Shown piece by piece: positions 1 to 8,218 of a DNA stretch of 8,218 nucleotides. The notes below the pieces were generated by a model that saw only the letters and a list, made by a program, of their open reading frames with translations, was not told where the DNA came from and made no database searches. The translations under genes were made by a program, and so were the position numbers. The stretch covers positions 1 to 8,218 of the forward strand of contig CALGGX010000193.1 of NCBI GenBank assembly GCA_937916025.1. Direction: 5' to 3'. Origin of the DNA: an uncultured Selenomonadales bacterium (GTDB taxonomy: Bacteria; Bacillota_C; Negativicutes; Selenomonadales; Selenomonadaceae). Numbering within the stretch: the stretch's first letter is position 1; each line of letters opens with the position of its first letter.

Positions 1-29
1 TCTTTCCCTACACGACGCTCTTCCGATCT
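1..29. other. Illumina TruSeq adapter contamination
   Basis: The first 29 bases match the 3' end of the Illumina TruSeq universal/read-1 adapter, ending in the diagnostic CTTCCGATCT. Genuine sequence starts at base 30. Read on the minus strand, the adapter extends the partial gene there in frame with residues RSEERRVGK, a well-known artefact peptide. This stretch should be trimmed, and no biology should be read from it. Confidence 0.98.
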
Positions 30-227
30 GGGGCTGTTTTTCGCGGGCTTGCCGACTTTGATCTCAACCTTGTCTCCGACTTTGTCATAGAGAATGATGT
101 TCGGAGCTTCCGCGCCGCCGCCGGATTGTTTGTTGAGTTTGATGTGCGTCATTTTTTTGTTGCGCCCGGAAATTTGCGCGGCTTTGATATTGCACGCGCC
201 GAAGTCTATGCCAACGTATGTTTTCAT
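30..227 (-). CDS. Second Hsp70/actin-like ATPase, N-terminal fragment
   Basis: This is the first 66 codons of a gene cut off by the contig edge; the reading frame is open up to the adapter. The protein starts MKTYVGIDFGACNIKAAQIS. The VGIDFG segment followed by a short polar turn is the phosphate-1 loop of the actin/Hsp70/StbA ATPase superfamily, and the later APNIILYD stretch sits where Hsp70 proteins have the IPSVI strand. The usual Thr-Thr after the loop Gly (IDLGTTNT in the complete Hsp70-like gene of this operon) is replaced by Ala-Cys, so this is a divergent member or not a classical chaperone. The ATG overlaps the stop of the 493-codon gene in an ATGA, with a GGAG seven bases upstream, which implies translational coupling. 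It could be an Hsp70-like protein or a ParM/MreB-type actin homologue; the fragment is too short to decide. Confidence 0.8.
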
Positions 228-1705
228 TTCGCATCTCCGATATATTTGCACACGACCATATTGCCGTCGCAAGTAATATGTTCAATCTCGCCGTCTTCAT
301 TAAGATAGTCAATGTTGTACGGAAGCCGCTCCACTTCGTCAATGAGATTGTCTTCGGATTTGTTCGTCGTGTTTTTGGAGATGATTGCCATGTGCTCGAT
401 ATCGGAGGGCTTCATGAATTTCTTGGGTTCGATCGGAATGGTGTAGACGCGGCAAGCGGCGAGATATGCGTTGAGTCGCGCCAACAATCCGGCGTAGAAT
501 TCCGGATTGTCTTTGCGCCCGCGATAAACGGCATTCATCAGCTGTTTGAGGAACGACTTCGACAGCACTTTGAAAAACGCCTCGGTGCATTCTTGCGAAA
601 GAATGTCTTCATCGAATTTGCCGCGATTGAATTTGTCGATGACTTTATTCAGCTCGTGTTTGTAGATATTGATGATGTCGACGAGCATCGCGCGCTTTTT
701 CGGATCGTAATTCTCGCGGGCGAGGAAGTCGGTGATATCGGAGAGATTGTCGGCGATTTTGAGTTGAGCCGCAACCTGATCCCGATCATTCGGCAAAAAG
801 ATCGCATCCGATTTTTTAATGTTGAAATCACGAATGTCGAGCAAGCCGCGCGGAGTTGTCGAAGTTTGCGGCGTCGGTTTTGGCGACGTTGTCGGTCGCG
901 GCGGAGTTGCCGGTTTCTGCGGCAGAGTTGTCGTTTGCGTCGGCGGCGTTGGCGGCATCGACGGTTGCGGCGGTTTCGGAGGAGTCGGTTGGATTGGTGA
1001 TTGGATTTTTTCTTGCAGTTCGTTGACATGCGAGCGCAATTCGTTTTGTTTCGACTGCAGGAAATTGAAGCCGTTGATCATCTGATTGATCGTGTTTTGA
1101 TGTTGGTTCAACCGATTTGCCAATGTCTGAATGTCGGACGATACATCGGAAATTGCGCCGTCGACGGGGCGTTGTTCGATTGCGTCGATGCGGTTCGACA
1201 ACCGTATCAGTTCATCGCGCGTATTGTTCAACGCATCGATGATGTTTTTGATCCGCGCGGCTGTTTCCGACATTCCCTGTTGCATTGAAAGAATTTCGTT
1301 TTTCAATTGCCGGTTGATCGTATCCGAATCGGTGCGTGAAGGGTAATTTCGGAGTGCGGAACCGATTTGCGCCGTATCGTTTTCGAGCGCGGCGAGTTTT
1401 TTCTCGATTGCTTTGATCTGCCCGTCGAGCTCGCCTTTTTTACTCGAGCTCTTCTTCAGCTCCGAAATTCGCTGCTCGGCACCGGTTTTGACAATGAAGA
1501 CGAAAATGCCGACCGCGACGATCAACGCCAGCAGTATCCAAAACTCCGGCGAACTGCCGAATGAATTTTCGGCGACAGTCCGAACGGCTTCATTCATTGA
1601 GCCGTCGGCGGCGGTTTGCGCAACTTCATTCATTGAACCGTCGGCGGCAGTCTGAACCGATTCATTCACTGAACCTTCGACAGCAGTTTGTGCGGTTTCA
1701 TTCAT
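224..1705 (-). CDS. Membrane-anchored coiled-coil protein with repeats and Pro-rich linker
   Basis: This 493-residue protein belongs to no family I recognise, but its architecture is clear. Residues 1-48 are four 12-residue repeats of the type MNEVAQTAADGS. Residues 55-72 (FWILLALIVAVGIFVFIV) form one transmembrane helix. Residues about 77-233 are polar, Leu/Ile-heptad-like and probably coiled coil. Residues about 235-286 are Pro/Thr-rich. Residues about 290-493 form a mostly helical domain ending in a DGEIEH beta-type motif. The segment after the helix is basic (K, R, KK, SKK) and the one before it acidic, so the positive-inside rule places the C-terminal domain in the cytoplasm. That C-terminal domain resembles the end of the upstream 265-residue protein, so the two are paralogues there. 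A GGGAG ten bases before the ATG supports the first start. The stop overlaps the next ATPase gene. An anchor or adaptor for the neighbouring Hsp70-like ATPases is a plausible inferred role. Confidence 0.9.
   Translation of the reverse strand: MNETAQTAVEGSVNESVQTAADGSMNEVAQTAADGSMNEAVRTVAENSFGSSPEFWILLALIVAVGIFVFIVKTGAEQRISELKKSSSKKGELDGQIKAIEKKLAALENDTAQIGSALRNYPSRTDSDTINRQLKNEILSMQQGMSETAARIKNIIDALNNTRDELIRLSNRIDAIEQRPVDGAISDVSSDIQTLANRLNQHQNTINQMINGFNFLQSKQNELRSHVNELQEKIQSPIQPTPPKPPQPSMPPTPPTQTTTLPQKPATPPRPTTSPKPTPQTSTTPRGLLDIRDFNIKKSDAIFLPNDRDQVAAQLKIADNLSDITDFLARENYDPKKRAMLVDIINIYKHELNKVIDKFNRGKFDEDILSQECTEAFFKVLSKSFLKQLMNAVYRGRKDNPEFYAGLLARLNAYLAACRVYTIPIEPKKFMKPSDIEHMAIISKNTTNKSEDNLIDEVERLPYNIDYLNEDGEIEHITCDGNMVVCKYIGDAK
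1562..1705 (-). repeat. Four tandem 36-base repeats (12 residues each)
   Basis: The first 48 codons of the 493-residue protein are four in-frame repeats: MNETAQTAVEGS, VNESVQTAADGS, MNEVAQTAADGS and MNEAVRTVAENS. Asn-Glu at positions 2-3, Thr at 7 and Ser at 12 are invariant. The two middle units are the most alike. Together they form an acidic segment before the transmembrane helix, predicted to lie outside the cytoplasm. Copy number may vary between strains by slippage. Confidence 0.93.
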
Positions 1706-1715
1706 TAAACATCAA

Positions 1716-1722
1716 CTCCCTC
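1716..1722 (-). promoter_or_regulatory. Ribosome binding site of the 493-codon gene
   Basis: On the minus strand this reads GAGGGAG, ten bases before the ATG ending at 1703. It overlaps the stop codon of the 265-codon gene. It decides for the first ATG over the repeated in-frame ATG codons later in the 12-residue repeats. Confidence 0.75.
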
Positions 1723-2518
1723 ATTTTTGTTTGTACCCGATGCATTGCCCGTCAATCCAATATTTTTCAATTTCGCCGTCATTGCCGTGATACTCGATGT
1801 AATACGGCAAGACGCTAATATCCGCAATCTTGTTGTCGAGTTGTGCACTCGGCGCGGGAGAGGTTCCCATCGGTTTCATGTGATGATCCGCCTTCGCAAA
1901 ATCGTCACCGATACTCAGCGCGAACTCCTTCAAACCGATTCGCTTGAAATACTGCATCACGCACTGCTCGATCGATCGGTAATACGTTCTGATGTTTGCG
2001 TCGACAGTTTTTCTGCCCGTGCGACAACTCTTAAGAATGGTATGGAAGCGTTTTTGTATCACCGACGCGAGCCGCTCGGCAAAGTCCAATGAAGTATCGC
2101 CGTCGATCGTTTCCGGGCGCGTAAAATTGTTGCGAATATCCTTTTTGTAATTCTCTATGATCTCCGAAAAACCACGGCTTTGTCTGTCGAATCTGCCTCG
2201 GAAGAAATTTTCCAACTCACTCACGTTTTCGATTTCCGCGCGGCAACGCATCCAATCAATCGGCGCGGCAATGTTGATGGGTTTGCCTTCTTTGATCGTC
2301 GGAGGCGGTTGAAACGTCGCCCGCGAAGGACTCGGTGAAGGACTCGGTCGCGGCGATTGCCGAATCGGTTGCGTCGGCGGAATAAATTCGAGCTTCATCG
2401 GATGCGGCGTCTCAATTTCGCCTCTCATTTTGCCTACAATGCCGAGCACTTCACCGTAATCGTTGCGCAATCGCTTCAGAAATTCGCGCGTTTCCTGCAA
2501 TGTTTTCACGGCATTCAC
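1721..2518 (-). CDS. Unknown protein paralogous to the C-terminus of the membrane-anchored partner
   Basis: This 265-residue protein is of unknown function. Residues 1-35 are a charged helical segment, and residues about 36-80 are a Pro/Ser-rich linker containing SPSPSPS. Residues about 85-265 form a mixed helical domain ending PYYIEYHGNDGEIEKYWIDG. That ending parallels the end of the membrane-anchored 493-residue protein (PYNIDYLNEDGEIEHITCDG), and the preceding helical stretches also align in order, so the two share a domain. No signal peptide or membrane segment is seen, so it is probably a soluble counterpart. The start is GTG, overlapping the Hsp70 gene's stop as GTGA. There is no convincing Shine-Dalgarno sequence, so translation probably depends on re-initiation after the Hsp70-like protein. 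That coupling and the shared domain suggest a partner of the Hsp70-like ATPase (inference). Confidence 0.88.
   Translation of the reverse strand: MNAVKTLQETREFLKRLRNDYGEVLGIVGKMRGEIETPHPMKLEFIPPTQPIRQSPRPSPSPSPSRATFQPPPTIKEGKPINIAAPIDWMRCRAEIENVSELENFFRGRFDRQSRGFSEIIENYKKDIRNNFTRPETIDGDTSLDFAERLASVIQKRFHTILKSCRTGRKTVDANIRTYYRSIEQCVMQYFKRIGLKEFALSIGDDFAKADHHMKPMGTSPAPSAQLDNKIADISVLPYYIEYHGNDGEIEKYWIDGQCIGYKQK
2325..2348 (-). repeat. 12-base tandem repeat in the Ser-Pro linker
   Basis: Two exact copies of a 12-base unit (plus strand gaaggactcggt) code for the Ser-Pro repeats in the linker of the 265-residue protein. This is a small slippage-prone tract, and the length change it would allow is in frame. 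Confidence 0.85.
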
Positions 2519-4089
2519 TCCAAATCGCTTTGTTTGTTGAATTTGATCTTGTTGCTCTCTTTGATCGTTTTGCCTCTGCCGTCTTTGAGCGCAACATAAA
2601 TGTCGAGACTGCCGTCGGTCTGCGCGGTAAATTCGACTTCGACATCGGTATCGTCCGCGCGGAGCCCCTGCGGCAAATTGTCGATGATCAGCGTATCAAT
2701 CTGCTCGATGCCCGTGTCGAGAATGCTTCGCGCGTTCGGATAATTTTTGATGTCGCGCTCGTAATAATCGATCTTGACGGTCGCCTGATTGTCGTGTTCA
2801 AGGCTGAATGTTCTTTTGCGAGTGCAGGGCAACGGCTCGTCCGCATTGATGATCATCTCAAATCGGGCGAAACTCAAATCCTTGCGCGCCGCAATGCCCA
2901 TCTGAACATTCGTGATCGCCTTCGAAGTGATGTTGTCTTTTTTTGCGAGCACCGCCGCGCCGCGCGAGATCAGAGTGTCGACATCATCGCAAAAGACGAC
3001 TTCATGATCCTGCAGACATTCCTCGAGACTCTCTTTGACGAGCGGAATGTTGGAACTGCCGCCCGCCAGCACGATCTGATCGATATTGTCGATGCCTTTC
3101 GACTTTGCCTCGGCAATCGTCCGCTTCGTGATCTCAACCGTTTCGTCAATGAACTCGCGAATGAACTCTTCCAATTCCGCGCGGGTGAATTGCACTTCAA
3201 ACAGCGTCAATTGCCCGTCCGGCAATATCAAATTGCAGAACTCGGTAACATCTTCTTCTTCCGACAGCCGCTCTTTGATGTTGTTCGCCATCGTGTCGAT
3301 TTCGCTCATGTTCAGCCGATAATCCGTCAGCGAAATGTTTTGCTCGTCTTCATCAAACTCTTCCTCGTCCGTCGGCATTGCCAAGCCGTGTTCGTCTTCA
3401 ATGCGCTCGAGGATCGCTTCGATAAGCCTTTCGGTAAGCGCATTGCCGCCGAGATTTTTATCGCCGCCGGTTGCAATCTCATCGAAACTGTTGCCCTTTC
3501 GCTGAATAATCGACACATCGAAAGTGCCGCCGCCGAAGTCATAGACAAGAATGACTGAATTCGGCTCGCCGCTGCCTTGCGAGTCTTCATAAGCGATTGC
3601 CGCCGCCGTGGGTTCCGCCGCAAGTTTAATCGTGTCAAGTCCGGCTTCGCGAGCCGCGCGGCGAGTCTCGCCTTTCTGTGTCGAGCTGAATTTCGCCGGA
3701 ACGGTAATGATCGCTTTTTCGATGACGCCGTCGACACTGCCGAATTCTTTTAAGAGTTTTGCTTCCAGGCCGCCGACGAGCTTGTTGAGAAACAGTTTGG
3801 CGATATCGCGCGAGCGGAGCGAAAATTTATCGCCGTTTTCGGCTGTGATATCATATTTCTCGGTATCGCCCATGCGCGTTTTGAAATTGCGAACGCCCGC
3901 CGACGGATTTTGTTGCAAAAACTTTCGCGCCTTGCTGCCGATGAAATACTCGCTCTTGCTTACGAAGTAAATCACCGACGGAATGATTGTCTCTTGATTG
4001 TAGCGCAACTGCCGCAATTTGCCGTCTTTGTTGACATACGAAATGACGGTGTTGGTCGTGCCGAGATCAATTCCAATCTCTTTGCCCAT
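2515..4089 (-). CDS. Hsp70-like ATPase lacking the C-terminal lid
   Basis: A 524-residue Hsp70-family protein. The nucleotide-binding domain spans about residues 1-385. It has phosphate-1 IDLGTTNT (7-14), VPAKF (130-134), EPTAAAIAY (159-167), phosphate-2 DFGGGTFDVS (184-193), GGDKNLGG (208-215) and the adenosine motif LAGGSSNIPLV (341-351). Lys70 lies where DnaK has its catalytic lysine. The ATPase site therefore looks intact. An acidic insert (DEEEFDEDEQ, about 241-250) is present. After residue 385 the hydrophobic interdomain linker of DnaK is not obvious. About 140 residues of beta-type sequence follow (QGLRADDTDVEVEF is typical of SBD-beta), with no helical lid; DnaK itself is around 640 residues. 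It is therefore not the housekeeping DnaK. A GGAGGG eight bases before the ATG supports the start. It sits downstream of spike and tube genes and overlaps its putative partner gene. A role in assembly or substrate loading is inferred. Confidence 0.95.
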   Translation of the reverse strand: MGKEIGIDLGTTNTVISYVNKDGKLRQLRYNQETIIPSVIYFVSKSEYFIGSKARKFLQQNPSAGVRNFKTRMGDTEKYDITAENGDKFSLRSRDIAKLFLNKLVGGLEAKLLKEFGSVDGVIEKAIITVPAKFSSTQKGETRRAAREAGLDTIKLAAEPTAAAIAYEDSQGSGEPNSVILVYDFGGGTFDVSIIQRKGNSFDEIATGGDKNLGGNALTERLIEAILERIEDEHGLAMPTDEEEFDEDEQNISLTDYRLNMSEIDTMANNIKERLSEEEDVTEFCNLILPDGQLTLFEVQFTRAELEEFIREFIDETVEITKRTIAEAKSKGIDNIDQIVLAGGSSNIPLVKESLEECLQDHEVVFCDDVDTLISRGAAVLAKKDNITSKAITNVQMGIAARKDLSFARFEMIINADEPLPCTRKRTFSLEHDNQATVKIDYYERDIKNYPNARSILDTGIEQIDTLIIDNLPQGLRADDTDVEVEFTAQTDGSLDIYVALKDGRGKTIKESNKIKFNKQSDLE

Positions 4090-4104: not shown

Positions 4105-4749
4105 TCAGTAAATGACAAATTCATCGAGCCGCATCGTCTCTCGAACTCCGATCAAACCGAAGCGGCTGTTCCAAAAAATTTCTGCCGTTGCATCCATGTC
4201 GAGCAGAAGCCGCATCAGCAATTCCATCAGTCGGCAATTGTGCTCGGTCTCCGGCGCGGGAATGCACAGCAGAAATTTCTCCTCAAATTCATGATAAAAA
4301 CTCTCCGTCGACGGAAAAAATTGTTCGACGGCATCAAAAAATATCGAGCGAAGTCCTTCCGCCGCCTCGTGACGTTGCAGGAAAATCAACAACAGCCGTT
4401 GCTCGGCGTCCGATAATGTCGAATACAACTCCGCCGCGCGCTTTCCGTAATGTTCCGCGCGGAGCTCGGCGTCAAGCGCGTGCTCGGCAAATGAAACCGC
4501 ATGCAATCCGCTCTTTCGATCGAGTTTTGCGAGATAATGCAGAAGGCAATTCTCGAATGCGCCGCGCGGATTTTCGTCCGCATCGCAATCACTCTCGAAC
4601 AGCGGCGAAAAAATGTCATGAAAACGCAACAGCGGATTGATGCCGATCCTTTTGCCGTCGACGGAGCCGATCTCCAAATACGGCGAGAGCGGTTTCGTAT
4701 CGAGATAAAACTCGTTGTCTTCGGCGTAATTCTGCCAAAGATAATTCAT
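4105..4749 (-). CDS. Unknown 214-residue protein in the injection-system operon
   Basis: I do not recognise the family. The protein begins MNYLWQNYAEDNEFYLD, has a segment PYLEIGSVDGKRIGINPLLR near residues 22-41, then a largely helical body rich in Leu, Glu and aromatic residues, and ends RETMRLDEFVIY. No signal peptide, membrane segment or catalytic motif is evident. The chosen ATG overlaps the stop of the 391-codon gene as ATGA; a frame extension six codons upstream has no support. The tight coupling with the 391-codon gene, between spike and Hsp70-like genes, suggests that the two products form a complex. By position they could be baseplate-type proteins like the TssF/TssG pair, but no TssG motif is recognisable, so this is only a hypothesis. 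Confidence 0.85.
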   Translation of the reverse strand: MNYLWQNYAEDNEFYLDTKPLSPYLEIGSVDGKRIGINPLLRFHDIFSPLFESDCDADENPRGAFENCLLHYLAKLDRKSGLHAVSFAEHALDAELRAEHYGKRAAELYSTLSDAEQRLLLIFLQRHEAAEGLRSIFFDAVEQFFPSTESFYHEFEEKFLLCIPAPETEHNCRLMELLMRLLLDMDATAEIFWNSRFGLIGVRETMRLDEFVIY

Positions 4750-5921
4750 GCGTCGACACCTGCCCAATTGAACTCCGGATAATTTTTTGACATGTAATTG
4801 ATGACGAAACTCGCGTAATCGGCTTTGAATTTCGATTGCCCGCCCGCAAACTCGATGCGGCAGAGCGGTTTGCGTTTGATTGCGCCGAGAAAACGCTCCT
4901 CATCCGGCGTGAAATACTCGTCTTCCCGACGATAGAGTTTAATGACATTGCCGCCTTCGGCTTCGCGATACGCGGCGGGAAACAGCCGCCCCGCCCGAGT
5001 TTCGTTGAAACACGCGAGAACATTTTCGACATCGCCTTTCGTCCGCAATCGCAATTTCCGATTTCGGCGAGGAAAATCATTGCAGAACGCGTCGCGCAAA
5101 TCCTCGACTTCATTAAACATGACGGTTTTGTACTCCCGATCTTTCAGCAATGCATTGAAGCCAAGCACGACGGTTTTCGAGTCTTCATCGACGAGACGAT
5201 ACACGTCGTCACACGGCTGATTCGGCAGAACAAACGCCTTCGCCTCGCTGTCGAAACGAAAATCATACTCGTATCGAATGAGTTTGTCGTCGGCACCCGT
5301 CATCGGATCGCGATTGTAAGTCGCGCTCGCAATCGACAAATTCCAAGCAAGCTCGTGATCGACGATGAGTTTGTCGTTTCTGAACTCGACGGCGGCAGCG
5401 CGTTTCAATTCATCTTTGCCGAGCTCCGGCGCGATGATGTCGACGGCTTTTCGAGCATACGGCGAATAGATCACCGGACGTTTGATGTTGTAAAGCGCGG
5501 CGATGTCAAAGAGAATTTTTTCATGTCGGACGAAGCGCGAATGTCTTTGCAGACGATAAGAAAATTCCTTCCGCTCGCCGTCGCGATCGGTGATAATGCC
5601 GGTGTAAGTTTCGGCGCAGAGATTTGTGATATCGTCATACGCCGCGTCGAGGAAAAATGCCGTGCCCGTATCGATTGTCGTCAAGCCGCGCATTGCTTCA
5701 GAATTTCCGCGCGGAACGAGCTTGACGATCACATCAAAATCCCGCTCCCAATCGACGGCGCGAGTTTCCAAGTCGATTCGTTTCGACAGCTCCGACAAAA
5801 ATTCTGTTTGATGCCGCGCCAATCGGGAGAAGATTTTTTCCATCATCTGACGCTCCCCGTCGTCATTTCGATACGAACGCGCAATTATATCTTTCAATTG
5901 CCGCTCGAGATTTTGCTCCAT
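4746..5921 (-). CDS. Unknown 391-residue protein downstream of the VgrG-like spike
   Basis: The family is not recognised. The first roughly 60 residues are charged and helical (MEQNLERQLKDIIARSY), followed by a long mixed alpha/beta body. Notable segments are RGLTTIDTGTAFFLDAAYDD around residues 78-97, AALYNIKRPVIYSPYARKAV, and a C-terminal INYMSKNYPEFNWAGVDA. No membrane helix, signal peptide or nuclease/protease signature stands out. The start is supported by GGGAGG eight bases before the ATG. Its stop overlaps the next gene's ATG. Codons 26-38 (MMEKIFSRLARHQ) are duplicated exactly just upstream in a chimeric ORF. From position, a baseplate, adaptor or spike-associated structural part is possible, but nothing in the sequence proves it. 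An effector is less likely because the product is intracellular-looking and coupled to the downstream genes. Confidence 0.88.
   Translation of the reverse strand: MEQNLERQLKDIIARSYRNDDGERQMMEKIFSRLARHQTEFLSELSKRIDLETRAVDWERDFDVIVKLVPRGNSEAMRGLTTIDTGTAFFLDAAYDDITNLCAETYTGIITDRDGERKEFSYRLQRHSRFVRHEKILFDIAALYNIKRPVIYSPYARKAVDIIAPELGKDELKRAAAVEFRNDKLIVDHELAWNLSIASATYNRDPMTGADDKLIRYEYDFRFDSEAKAFVLPNQPCDDVYRLVDEDSKTVVLGFNALLKDREYKTVMFNEVEDLRDAFCNDFPRRNRKLRLRTKGDVENVLACFNETRAGRLFPAAYREAEGGNVIKLYRREDEYFTPDEERFLGAIKRKPLCRIEFAGGQSKFKADYASFVINYMSKNYPEFNWAGVDA
5807..5846 (-). repeat. Source copy of the 40-base repeat (391-codon gene, codons 26-38)
   Basis: This 40-base stretch occurs again, without mismatch, at 6028-6067. 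Here it is inside the 391-codon gene and codes for MMEKIFSRLARHQ. Identity stops abruptly on both sides, which marks recombination breakpoints. Confidence 0.97.
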
Positions 5922-6026
5922 TGCTCCGCCTCCCGTTAACTCATTTCGATCTTGCTGCCGGAGATTTTGATTTTACCGCTCGCCGACAGCTCGAGCTTGC
6001 CTTTGCTGCCGACAGTCAATTCGCCG
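5919..6026 (-). repeat. 108-base duplicated copy of the VgrG gene's 3' end and start region
   Basis: This segment matches 6065-6172 at an offset of 146 bases, with four mismatches (5925, 5945, 5971, 5995). It carries the last codons of the VgrG-like gene from GELTV to the stop, then the GGGAGG site and the ATG now used by the 391-codon gene. Two mismatches change residues (Phe to Leu, Val to Ile), one is silent and one lies between ribosome binding site and start. Confidence 0.95.
5929..5934 (-). promoter_or_regulatory. Ribosome binding site of the 391-codon gene
   Basis: GGGAGG on the minus strand, seven to eight bases before the ATG at 5921-5919. It is a duplicate of the site at 6075-6080. 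Confidence 0.8.
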
Positions 6027-6067
6027 ATTTGATGCCGCGCCAATCGGGAGAAGATTTTTTCCATCAT
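5936..6067 (-). CDS. 43-codon chimeric ORF made by local duplication
   Basis: The ORF begins ATG ATG and codes for MMEKIFSRLARHQ, identical to residues 26-38 of the 391-residue protein. It then has one junction Ile, and then GELTVGSKGKLELSASGK and onward to SKIEMS, the last 29 residues of the VgrG-like protein with two substitutions. The reading frame of both parents is kept across the junction, and a single unmatched base (6027) lies at the join. It has a copied GGGAGG site, so it may be translated. The likely origin is a tandem duplication joining codon 38 of the 391-codon gene to codon 429 of the spike gene, followed by loss of codons 1-25 between two ATG codons. It may be a non-functional remnant, a tiny spike-tip-like beta peptide, or an assembly artefact. 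Confidence 0.7.
   Translation of the reverse strand: MMEKIFSRLARHQIGELTVGSKGKLELSASGKIKISGSKIEMS
6028..6067 (-). repeat. Duplicate copy of the 40-base repeat
   Basis: An exact copy of 5807-5846, placed here directly behind a ribosome binding site so that internal codon 26 of the 391-codon gene becomes a start codon. It forms the first 13 codons of the chimeric ORF. Confidence 0.97.
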
Positions 6068-6172
6068 TGCCCCGCCTCCCGTTAACTCATCTCGATCTTG
6101 CTGCCGGAGATTTTGACTTTACCGCTCGCCGACAGCTCGAACTTGCCTTTGCTGCCGACAGTCAATTCGCCG
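6065..6172 (-). repeat. Source copy of the 108-base repeat (VgrG 3' end)
   Basis: This is the original position of the segment repeated at 5919-6026. It covers the last 29 codons of the VgrG-like gene, its stop, the following GGGAGG and an ATG. Confidence 0.95.
6075..6080 (-). promoter_or_regulatory. Ribosome binding site of the chimeric ORF
   Basis: GGGAGG on the minus strand, seven to eight bases before the ATG at 6067-6065. Probably this was the original site of the 391-codon gene before the duplication. Confidence 0.75.
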
Positions 6173-7455
6173 CCTTCGATTTTGATTTTGTTTTTGCCGT
6201 TGAGCGATATCTCGCCGCAGGATTTGATCTCGATCTTGTCTTTCGTGATCTCGAGCGAATTCTCGCCGACGATCAGTTTGATGCCGTTCTTATCCATTAC
6301 GATCTTGCTTTCATCGGAGTGCATTTCGAGCGAGTCTTTCTTCCAAAAAATTCGCCGTTTGAAATTGTTTCCGATATACTTCTCGACAACATTGCGACAT
6401 TCTTCATCGAGCGGAGTCTCTCGGAATGTCGACGCGGCATAAAGCATGCCGTTGCAAAAAAACACCTCGATCGGATCGCCCTTGTCGGGCAAAAAAACCA
6501 TGCCGCCGGATTTGCCGCTGTACGGACTGCGATACGCAATCCAAAGCGGCGCGTTTCGATCCATGTCCTCGATAAAGGCGTCGTCGAATTGCACTTGAAT
6601 TCGCCCGAGATGTTTCGGATCGTCGACATTTTTAACGATGGCATGCAGTCGGACGGTTTTTTCGAGATTCGGCGCGGGATTTTCAATCGGCGGCTTCGGT
6701 TCCGGCTCGTCCAATTCGTAAGTAAACACGCAACTCTCTTTCGACAGTTCCGCGCGGAGCTCGACAATGACGTATTGCGTCGCGTCTTTCGATTCCGTCT
6801 CGACCGTGACGACGCTTCCGAGCTCGAAATATGAGGGCGAGCTCAAAAACATTTTTGCTCGCCCTTCCGACCGAGCCCGCCGCACCGTCAATTGCCGGTT
6901 GATTTTAATTTGACGCGCCGAAGTCTCCACGCATTTCGACAAAAAAATTTCCGGCTCGGACATTGTGTCGAGTACCCAGAGTCGGCTGTTGAAATTTTTG
7001 GCGAGTCGCGCAATGAACTCGAAATTCGTCTCTTGATTTTGCAACAAAAACCGCTCGCATTTTTGCGCAGAAACTTCATTCGCGAGGCGCAAGCCGCACG
7101 ATTCCAATTTGAGTTTCGATTTATCGAGTACGTCGGCGATTGTTTTGTCGGGATTGCAAAAGATGCGCGTTTTCGGCTTTTCGTCGGTTGCAATCGACAG
7201 CGAAACGCATTTTACATGCACGCGCAAAGCACTGAAGCCGCGCTCGACTTCAACCGACTCGACGCGCCCGTGAAAAATCGTCGTCCGCTCGTCGAGCATC
7301 AGCGCAATGTTTTTGCCGACGCGGTCGAGGAATTGATCGTCACCGCCGGGCTCGGCAATCGCCGCCGTGAAATTCAATCGGCTGTGAGTTCCCTCGCGCT
7401 TGACGAGTTCAATCGCCGACAGGTACTCGATTTTGGGGAAGTTTTTAAGTTGCAT
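6082..7455 (-). CDS. VgrG-like spike protein of a contractile injection system
   Basis: A 457-residue homologue of the VgrG / phage gp27-gp5 spike family. Residues 1 to about 250 form the gp27-like ring portion, with the family-typical NFEFIARLAKNFNSRLWV segment at 144-161. After a Pro-rich hinge (251-263) comes the gp5-type OB fold at about 268-345, with LGRIQVQFDD at 283-292 and PDKGDPIEVFF at 323-333, matching the usual LGRV-V-F and P-GDEV-V-F signatures. Residues about 373-457 are short alternating-strand repeats (SLEITKDKIEIKSCGEISLN), as in the trimeric beta-helix needle. There is no appended effector domain, and the protein is shorter than many VgrGs of 600 residues or more. The start lies three bases after the tube-like gene's stop. 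In this family the trimer caps the tube and pierces the target membrane. T6SS versus phage-tail or eCIS origin cannot be fixed from this gene alone. Confidence 0.92.
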   Translation of the reverse strand: MQLKNFPKIEYLSAIELVKREGTHSRLNFTAAIAEPGGDDQFLDRVGKNIALMLDERTTIFHGRVESVEVERGFSALRVHVKCVSLSIATDEKPKTRIFCNPDKTIADVLDKSKLKLESCGLRLANEVSAQKCERFLLQNQETNFEFIARLAKNFNSRLWVLDTMSEPEIFLSKCVETSARQIKINRQLTVRRARSEGRAKMFLSSPSYFELGSVVTVETESKDATQYVIVELRAELSKESCVFTYELDEPEPKPPIENPAPNLEKTVRLHAIVKNVDDPKHLGRIQVQFDDAFIEDMDRNAPLWIAYRSPYSGKSGGMVFLPDKGDPIEVFFCNGMLYAASTFRETPLDEECRNVVEKYIGNNFKRRIFWKKDSLEMHSDESKIVMDKNGIKLIVGENSLEITKDKIEIKSCGEISLNGKNKIKIEGGELTVGSKGKFELSASGKVKISGSKIEMS

Positions 7456-7458
7456 TCT

Positions 7459-7884
7459 TCAGAAGGTCTCGATCGTCTTGAAATTGTTCTCTTTTTGCGT
7501 GAGATACAATGCAAAAGTGTCATCGGAATTGCTGCCCGTCACGCGATAATTCTCTTTGTAATCGACGACGAACATGTCCGGGAAAATGTAATTGCGTTTG
7601 ATCTCGCCGCCCTCAAAGATCGTGATCTCGAGTTGACGATACCACTTGCTGCCGTTGAGTTCCTTCGCCCAATTGAAAAGCTCCATGAGTTGCGGCTGAA
7701 TGAGATCGTCGATCTTGCCGAAGACGGCGACTTTTGCGAGCATGCCGCCCGCCTTCTGCCGTACATGGTCGTCAATCGTGTCGAGGAAAATGTCGAGTCC
7801 GGTGATGAAACTCTGACTTGCCGAGGCGTCTCCGATCTCAATCGGATCGCCTTCACTCGACGTAATTTTGATCGCATAATTCAT
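7459..7884 (-). CDS. Putative Hcp/tail-tube-like protein
   Basis: A 141-residue protein beginning MNYAIKITSSEGDPIEIGDA. It has alternating short strands, one helical stretch (QPQLMELFNWAKELNG) in the middle, then LEITIFEGGEIKRNYIFPDM and a C-terminal FALYLTQKENN. The size, mostly beta pattern with a single central helix, and position immediately before a VgrG-like gene fit a tube subunit (Hcp/TssD or phage tail tube), which would stack as hexameric rings inside a sheath. There is no diagnostic motif I can name, so the call rests on context and fold-like pattern. A small baseplate or tube-initiator protein is the alternative. The frame stays open upstream to 7962, but a GGGAGG ten bases before the ATG at 7884-7882 fixes this start and leaves a 22-base gap after the 50-codon gene. 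Confidence 0.6.
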   Translation of the reverse strand: MNYAIKITSSEGDPIEIGDASASQSFITGLDIFLDTIDDHVRQKAGGMLAKVAVFGKIDDLIQPQLMELFNWAKELNGSKWYRQLEITIFEGGEIKRNYIFPDMFVVDYKENYRVTGSNSDDTFALYLTQKENNFKTIETF

Positions 7885-7900: not shown

Positions 7901-7906
7901 GTTCGC

Positions 7907-8059
7907 TCACACGTTATTGCTGATGATGTCAAAATCATCGATGGTACTCTCGTCGTTTGCAAAGCGAATGATCACTTTCTTCTGCTCTTCGTCGATGACA
8001 ATTTCCTCGCCGGATTGCAAAATCAAATTGATGCTGTCTTTGAAACGTCTGCTTTGCAT
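7907..8059 (-). CDS. Small 50-residue protein of unknown function, downstream copy
   Basis: The product begins MQSRRFKDSINLILQSGEEI and ends DFDIISNNV, with a basic N-terminus, a central strand-like IVIDEEQKKVIIRF and an acidic C-terminus. It is identical to the upstream copy except for Asn in place of Asp at residue 48, and it stops with TGA instead of TAA. The ATG lies three bases after the stop of the other copy, with no clear Shine-Dalgarno, so re-initiation is likely. It immediately precedes the tube-like gene. I do not recognise a family; a small structural or chaperone-like accessory of the injection apparatus is possible but unproven. The near-perfect conservation of a second intact copy supports real coding. 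Confidence 0.75.
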   Translation of the reverse strand: MQSRRFKDSINLILQSGEEIVIDEEQKKVIIRFANDESTIDDFDIISNNV

Positions 8060-8062
8060 TTC
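7909..8062 (-). repeat. 154-base tandem repeat, copy nearer the tube-like gene
   Basis: It matches 8065-8218 at a 156-base period with one mismatch (T at 7918 against C at 8074). It spans nearly the whole 50-codon gene plus three upstream bases. Confidence 0.97.
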
Positions 8063-8215
8063 TTACACGTTATCGCTGATGATGTCAAAATCATCGATGG
8101 TACTCTCGTCGTTTGCAAAGCGAATGATCACTTTCTTCTGCTCTTCGTCGATGACAATTTCCTCGCCGGATTGCAAAATCAAATTGATGCTGTCTTTGAA
8201 ACGTCTGCTTTGCAT
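8063..8215 (-). CDS. Small 50-residue protein of unknown function, upstream copy
   Basis: A complete ORF from an ATG three bases inside the contig end to a TAA. It codes for the same 50-residue protein as its neighbour, with Asp instead of Asn at residue 48. Because the contig ends at the same bases (gaa before ATG) that separate the two copies, a third copy or another gene may lie directly upstream. The frame could also continue beyond the contig edge, so the start is less certain than in the other copy. Confidence 0.7.
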   Translation of the reverse strand: MQSRRFKDSINLILQSGEEIVIDEEQKKVIIRFANDESTIDDFDIISDNV

Positions 8216-8218
8216 TTC
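8065..8218 (-). repeat. 154-base tandem repeat, copy at the contig end
   Basis: This is the second copy of the repeat at 7909-8062. It runs exactly to the last base of the contig, suggesting that the assembler stopped because of the repeat and that the array could be longer in the genome. Confidence 0.95.

Follow-up and report, generated by a model that had tools for sequence, protein, structure and literature searches.

The contractile sheath of known type VI secretion systems (T6SS) is recycled by ClpV, an AAA+ unfoldase, and in the DnaK-GrpE pair the beta domain of GrpE contacts lobe IIB. To our knowledge Hsp70s do not belong to any machine of this kind, and our literature searches returned no such case. 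Here we analyze an 8,218-nucleotide stretch of DNA from an uncultured Selenomonadales bacterium (contig CALGGX010000193.1 of assembly GCA_937916025.1; the whole stretch is called the window). The window is part of a conserved operon of about 17 genes for a contractile injection system, and in it two Hsp70-type ATPase genes, H1 and H2, flank two partner genes, P1 and P2. In full-length relatives these genes belong to a cassette with a third Hsp70-family ATPase gene, HV, and the reading we prefer (probability about 0.5) is that the cassette encodes an accessory Hsp70/exchange-factor machine in the service of the injection apparatus, docked through P1 and the VWA domain of HV.

The locus resembles a T6SS (with ClpV, or ClpB in Francisella) in its contractile sheath, recognized by predicted structure, its Hcp-like protein and its VgrG spike, whereas no ClpV or TssC was found over the cut-off in the genomes searched and the operon carries Hsp70-type ATPases. 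From the Streptomyces contractile injection systems, the antifeeding prophage (AFP) and the Photorhabdus virulence cassettes (PVC) it differs by a long helical insertion in the sheath model, by its VgrG and Hcp-like genes and by the Hsp70 cassette. Like DnaK-GrpE, it combines Hsp70-family proteins (H1 and HV, by Pfam) with a partner domain that resembles GrpE in predicted structure; unlike DnaK-GrpE, the cassette has three divergent Hsp70s, of which H1 is lidless and one is degenerate, and two partners, paralogous to each other, that sit on Pro-rich or coiled-coil stalks, all within an injection operon, and no J-domain Pfam match was obtained among the block proteins scanned. In Francisella, ClpB is described as the AAA+ unfoldase for sheath recycling, and the ClpB-DnaK interaction as dispensable for T6 secretion (PMC7182274). 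The words Hsp70, DnaK, VgrG and contractile are absent from the main text of the Quinella genome paper (PMC9585023). Our searches of the open-access literature found no description of the cassette or the system, in agreement with a sequence-only reading of the window which had likened the layout to no named system.

The four genes belong to an all-or-none cassette

The cassette reads H1-P1-P2-H2-CC-HV and lies between the core genes G and X. Operons were counted where G and X were both on the stretch read, in cassette order, which gave 13. H1, two partner genes, H2 and HV were all present between G and X in 11 of them, with CC detected in nine of these, while none of H1, the partners, H2 or HV was present in the remaining two (G045 and Treponema), which keep S, T, VgrG, F, G, X and Y. 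Because 11 of 13 operons have all of these genes and two have none, the four genes travel within a larger all-or-none block that is accessory to the injection core. When the G045 and Treponema genomes were queried with H2, only DnaK (beside GrpE) was returned, together with, in G045, two weak matches in proteins of about 350 residues. Among the cassette operons, both partners are P1-type in G003, and in G073 the H1 and S genes are split and H2 is short at its 5' end.

Loci truncated at contig ends (G057, G060, G079, G106, G065:C173, G070:C88, G100:C125 and others) stand outside the 13, as does a second operon type with G- and X-family genes in another order; a second, broken copy in G006 (L012) was left out of the counts. 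Matches of the partner module at G003:C31, G003:C32, G100:C115, G078:C67, G057:C90, G060:C32 and G103:C92 fall outside the locus reading. The partner module was found in 28 of 189 genomes of the family (G045 is not among the 28) and in 28 of 380 genomes of a class sample. G346, with the cassette at the G-X position, was found only in the class-level search; it and G045, the core without a cassette, each lie on a contig of more than 2 Mb.

All genes of the window lie on the minus strand, in the order S end, T, VgrG, F, G, H1, P1, P2 and H2 start:

1..29, no strand: sequencing adapter, non-genomic, exact match to an Illumina adapter; cuts the H2 gene
30..227, minus: H2, second Hsp70-family ATPase, of which just the N-terminal ~66 residues are present (54-68% identity to full-length N-termini, L001-L004)
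224..1705, minus: P2, with hydrophobic segment from about residue 54, coiled coil, Pro-rich linker and C-terminal partner domain
1721..2518, minus: P1, soluble partner, with Pro-rich linker and C-terminal domain common with P2 (AlphaFold2 (AF2) model, profile comparison)
2515..4089, minus: H1, Hsp70-family ATPase with intact phosphate-loop residues (Pfam HSP70)
4105..4749, minus: G, conserved core gene of the injection operon, putative baseplate candidate
4746..5921, minus: F, conserved core gene with 28 homologues, putative baseplate candidate
6082..7455, minus: VgrG-like spike protein (Pfam Phage_base_V 3.8e-10; PDB VgrG 3.3e-8)
7459..7884, minus: T, small Hcp/TssD-like protein, probable tube (weak profile matches)
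7907..8218, minus: S (contractile sheath family), C-terminal end, in two copies that are almost identical and both carry a stop (BLASTP, C-termini of relatives, best 3.3e-7)

The H2 gene is cut at the window start because bases 1-29 match the adapter exactly. The order first read from the letters (ATPase, partner, partner, ATPase) agrees with the minus-strand open reading frame coordinates, and so do the tight joints: H1 and P1 overlap by 4 bases if a GTG start is used (an alternative start is possible at 2509), P1 and P2 are 15 bases apart, and P2 and H2 overlap by 4 bases. Two direct duplications are present in the window, each an assembly artefact or real: 7906-8061 / 8062-8217 (99% identical), which doubles the sheath C-terminus including its stop, and 5911-6026 / 6057-6172 (94% identical), around the VgrG/F junction.

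The partners are paralogues with a probable GrpE-like domain

The common C-terminal domain claimed for the two partners was confirmed. In the window P1 and P2 match each other in BLASTP at 2e-9 (the match includes part of the Pro-rich stretch), and profile-profile comparison gave E 5.6e-31 over 183 columns, or E 5.1e-22 over 179 columns after two P1-like rows had been removed from the P2 profile; as controls, five other operon families gave E 0.18 or worse. P1 and P2 are paralogues over a domain of about 180-190 residues. The DGEIE ending was rejected as its defining feature, as it varies in relatives. The Pro-rich linkers are present in both window partners (13 and 18 Pro per 40 residues) but likewise vary in relatives. 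As for the membrane tethering of one unit, the hydrophobic segment of P2 is strong in the window (Kyte-Doolittle value 2.81), but an N-terminal segment of at least 1.6 was seen in only 7 of 24 P2-type proteins (the 24 include one protein truncated at the N-terminus), and tethering is not general.

The AF2 model of P1 is a helical bundle with a beta domain. It suggests that the P1/P2 domain most resembles GrpE, the Hsp70 nucleotide-exchange factor; the structural likeness is suggestive and that in sequence not significant. None of 17 P1 members matched the GrpE Pfam family at E 10, and Foldseek gave no match for the P1 and S models at E 0.001 or better. In the reading we prefer, the domain is probably a GrpE-like nucleotide-exchange module. 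Divergent GrpE-family genes also adjoin Hsp70-like genes at L112-L116 (G106, G001, G002, G006 and G003), as separate Hsp70-GrpE pairs.

H1 and H2 are Hsp70-family proteins of unequal state

H1 matches the Pfam HSP70 family at E 8.4e-59 (199.8 bits against a curated cut-off of 20.6). The match ends at position 488 of the 599-position profile and at residue 505 of the 524-residue protein, and H1 lacks the alpha-helical lid because there is no room for it beyond that point. The equivalents of D8, T11, T12, E171, D194 and T199 (phosphate-1, phosphate-2 and connect Glu) are kept in 24 of 24 sequences; that of K70 is not conserved (K in 5 of 24). From these residues, H1 is predicted to be a working, lidless Hsp70-type ATPase.

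The identity of H2 comes from its full-length relatives (L002:15590-17095 at 90.4 bits and L084 at 72.4 bits, cut-off 20.6). Its phosphate-1 loop in the window reads GIDFGACN, not GIDLGTTN, and DxGA(C/V) replaces the DxGTT of Hsp70 in 25 of 26 relatives as well as in the window, with loss of both phosphate-1 threonines; the 26th relative (G073) is without the phosphate-1 region. The connect Glu is variable (Glu in 18 of 22). One non-H2 fragment from G045 that the locating profile had taken in (21 bits in the direct search) was left out of these counts. Since H2 is degenerate in the phosphate-1 loop, the H1 and H2 units are not equivalent. H2 probably binds nucleotide but hydrolyses it poorly, and may be regulatory or structural.

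In HV the phosphate-loop and connect residues are kept in 20 of 20 rows. The HV of the operons adds a VWA domain (Pfam match in two), with the MIDAS motif DxSGS in 11 of 11 operon HVs examined, a count taken without G021 (which has a different, longer HV-like protein in its place), G079 (open end) and G346.

In trees that took in Hsp70s only, H1, H2 and HV group together, separate from DnaK and two HscC-type proteins (support 95/92). Within this group H1 and H2 as sister duplicates are not supported (51/30), and neither H1 with HV (p 0.157) nor H2 with HV (p 0.436) was rejected. It can be seen that the idea of a duplicated ATPase-plus-adaptor unit survives in part: the partners are duplicates, but sisterhood of H1 and H2 finds no support, and free versions of the block (below) run the ATPases with one partner. 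Similarly, the two ATPases are both Hsp70-type and do flank the partners, but the block holds three (H1, H2 and HV), and the further Hsp70-fold genes HV, B and X rule out exactly two.

H1, H2 and HV might instead be actin-like filament formers of the MreB/ParM kind, with P1 and P2 as adaptors that position the apparatus, and not chaperones. MreB is indeed a secondary Pfam match of the ATPases, and a coiled coil is present in P2, whose window copy also has a membrane segment. However, H1 and HV match HSP70 far better than MreB, and the match runs into the substrate-binding beta domain. We consider this possibility the least probable of those discussed. The PADLOC search gave nothing beyond coiled-coil matches and one weak match within the Hsp70 portion of H2 and HV.

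The core encodes a contractile injection system

The link of the four genes to VgrG and an injection system, foreseen by the sequence-only reading, was borne out: S, a contractile sheath by predicted structure whose model has the long helical insertion, is followed by the Hcp-like T and then by VgrG, which matches Phage_base_V at 40.4 bits (cut-off 23.8) and provides the spike. A T relative in L002 matched TssD at E 0.0024, under the cut-off, and the T profile matched Hcp1 at E 0.075. No Pfam sheath family in 11 genomes, TssC in none of 11 and ClpV in none of 12 reached the cut-off (best ClpV 863 against 885 bits, away from the operon); the gp25 family was over its cut-off in one genome of those searched. 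Searches of PHROGs and NCBIfam with F, G and P1, and of PDB sequence profiles with F, S, X and Y, gave no useful match. The 28 homologues of F came with 13 loci in the query, 12 from Selenomonadaceae, Selenomonadales or Quinella records and one from Treponema; seven of these 13 records name a ruminant host, and no viral contig with F was found. Walker-A-like strings, two in assigned proteins of five loci, were taken as chance.

The core itself contains Hsp70-like folds. Proteins B and X carry Hsp70/actin-fold domains that align with H1 in hhalign at E 9.1e-18 and 9.4e-15, against 0.066 or worse for five other operon families. X also resembles SrfB (PF07520) weakly around the phosphate-2 motif (E 0.0064), but below the cut-off. 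The C-terminus of core family A aligns in register with GrpE at E 5.4e-6 over 91 columns (reversed control 0.53), and with the divergent GrpE group alone at E 0.015; the best GrpE Pfam score in family A was 15.9 bits (G092) against a cut-off of 25.8, with no other A gene among the matches listed.

A second, related operon type (L085-L089 and L093; G144, G001:C23, G005:C132, G092:C68 and G071:C50) has S-, T-, X-, F-, G- and Y-family genes and, at L088, where it was scanned, also genes for two FHA proteins and for one J-domain, one PP2C and one TPR protein. X-family matches of both operon kinds together occur in 42 of 189 family genomes. G006:C36 (L012 / L069) bears a second, decayed injection operon with split S and VgrG, in which a P2-type gene is all that is left of the cassette.

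At L002:3518-5793 there is an AHH-type nuclease gene with a DUF4280-like N-terminus (under the cut-off), followed by an Imm11-type gene, likely a cargo and immunity pair. This pair, and genes of the same families in other operons, would fit ATPases that act as effector chaperones, keeping cargo unfolded until loading. Yet the G045 and Treponema operons keep effector-type and Imm11-type genes without a cassette, and several cassette operons have only a short gene (105-120 residues) of the effector family. An effector-chaperone role seems improbable to us, if slightly less so than filament formation.

Free modules lack P1 and the VWA motif where these can be read

The four genes were expected to stay together. 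Wherever an operon has any of them between G and X, they are found together (11 of 11), but the block also occurs in ten further loci, with no injection genes detected on the stretches examined and with one P2-type partner each, and one orphan partner gene (G071) has no ATPases on its stretch. The make-up of the ten is H1-P-H2-HV in seven and H1-P-H2, H1-P-HV and P-H2-HV in one each, the last (G066) being cut by a contig end inside P2, so that its P1 and H1 are outside what can be judged. P1 was found in none of the nine judgeable loci, and the VWA motif in none of the eight free-module HVs examined; all P1 genes and VWA domains observed lie in operon-type loci. As they are absent from the free modules where these are readable, P1 and the VWA domain are tied to the injection context, and they are likely docking parts. 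On the H1 tree, the nine free H1 sequences fall into two groups, placed next to different operon-linked relatives, and a single clade was rejected (approximately unbiased (AU) test, p 3.7e-54). Release from the operon to the free state is the parsimonious direction from the trees, of which that of H1 is unrooted.

A small gene beside HV in one free module (L083:4252-4935) has an FtsZ_C match (1.3e-13), and genes of similar size (226-229 residues) lie near HV in several others.

These loci bear on whether the cassette could be an independent Hsp70 module, with an envelope, cytoskeletal or proteostasis function, that only happens to lie in an injection operon and has no action on the apparatus. 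The ten free loci, the injection cores without a cassette and the neighbour with the FtsZ_C match all speak for it. Against it, the G-X position is constant in 11 of 11 cassette operons including G346, the free H1s are two separate groups each beside operon-linked ones, and P1 and VWA are restricted as described above. We regard autonomy as rather unlikely, although it is the strongest of the competing explanations.

Discussion

The analysis adds four facts above all: the cassette is all-or-none, the second ATPase is degenerate, the sheath could be identified by predicted structure, and free modules occur without P1 and VWA. If the cassette does service the apparatus, H1-P1-P2-H2 would be the front part of an accessory chaperone cassette between G and X, and HV a second Hsp70 with a VWA binding domain whose MIDAS motif is intact. 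P2 would present the exchange domain on a coiled coil, membrane-anchored in the window. The Hsp70s would bind parts of the injection apparatus, the ATP turnover of H1 and HV would be reset by P1 and P2, and P1 and the VWA domain would dock the machine on the apparatus, which it would help to assemble, hold or recycle. The proposed job would be that of the AAA+ ATPase ClpV in the T6SS.

A broader proposal, which we put forward tentatively and as doubtful, is that one lineage of contractile injection systems relies for drive or recycling on dedicated Hsp70-type ATPases and the GrpE-fold exchange factors that belong to them (A-B in the core, and H1, H2, HV with P1/P2 in the cassette) rather than on AAA+ ClpV, and that this machine was twice released as a stand-alone chaperone module.

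The free modules are a natural comparison, the same ATPases with and without the injection-linked parts P1 and VWA, and G045 and G346 allow a direct comparison of the core without and with the cassette. If the Hsp70s service the apparatus, they would represent a chaperone solution to sheath recycling different from that of the AAA+ unfoldases.

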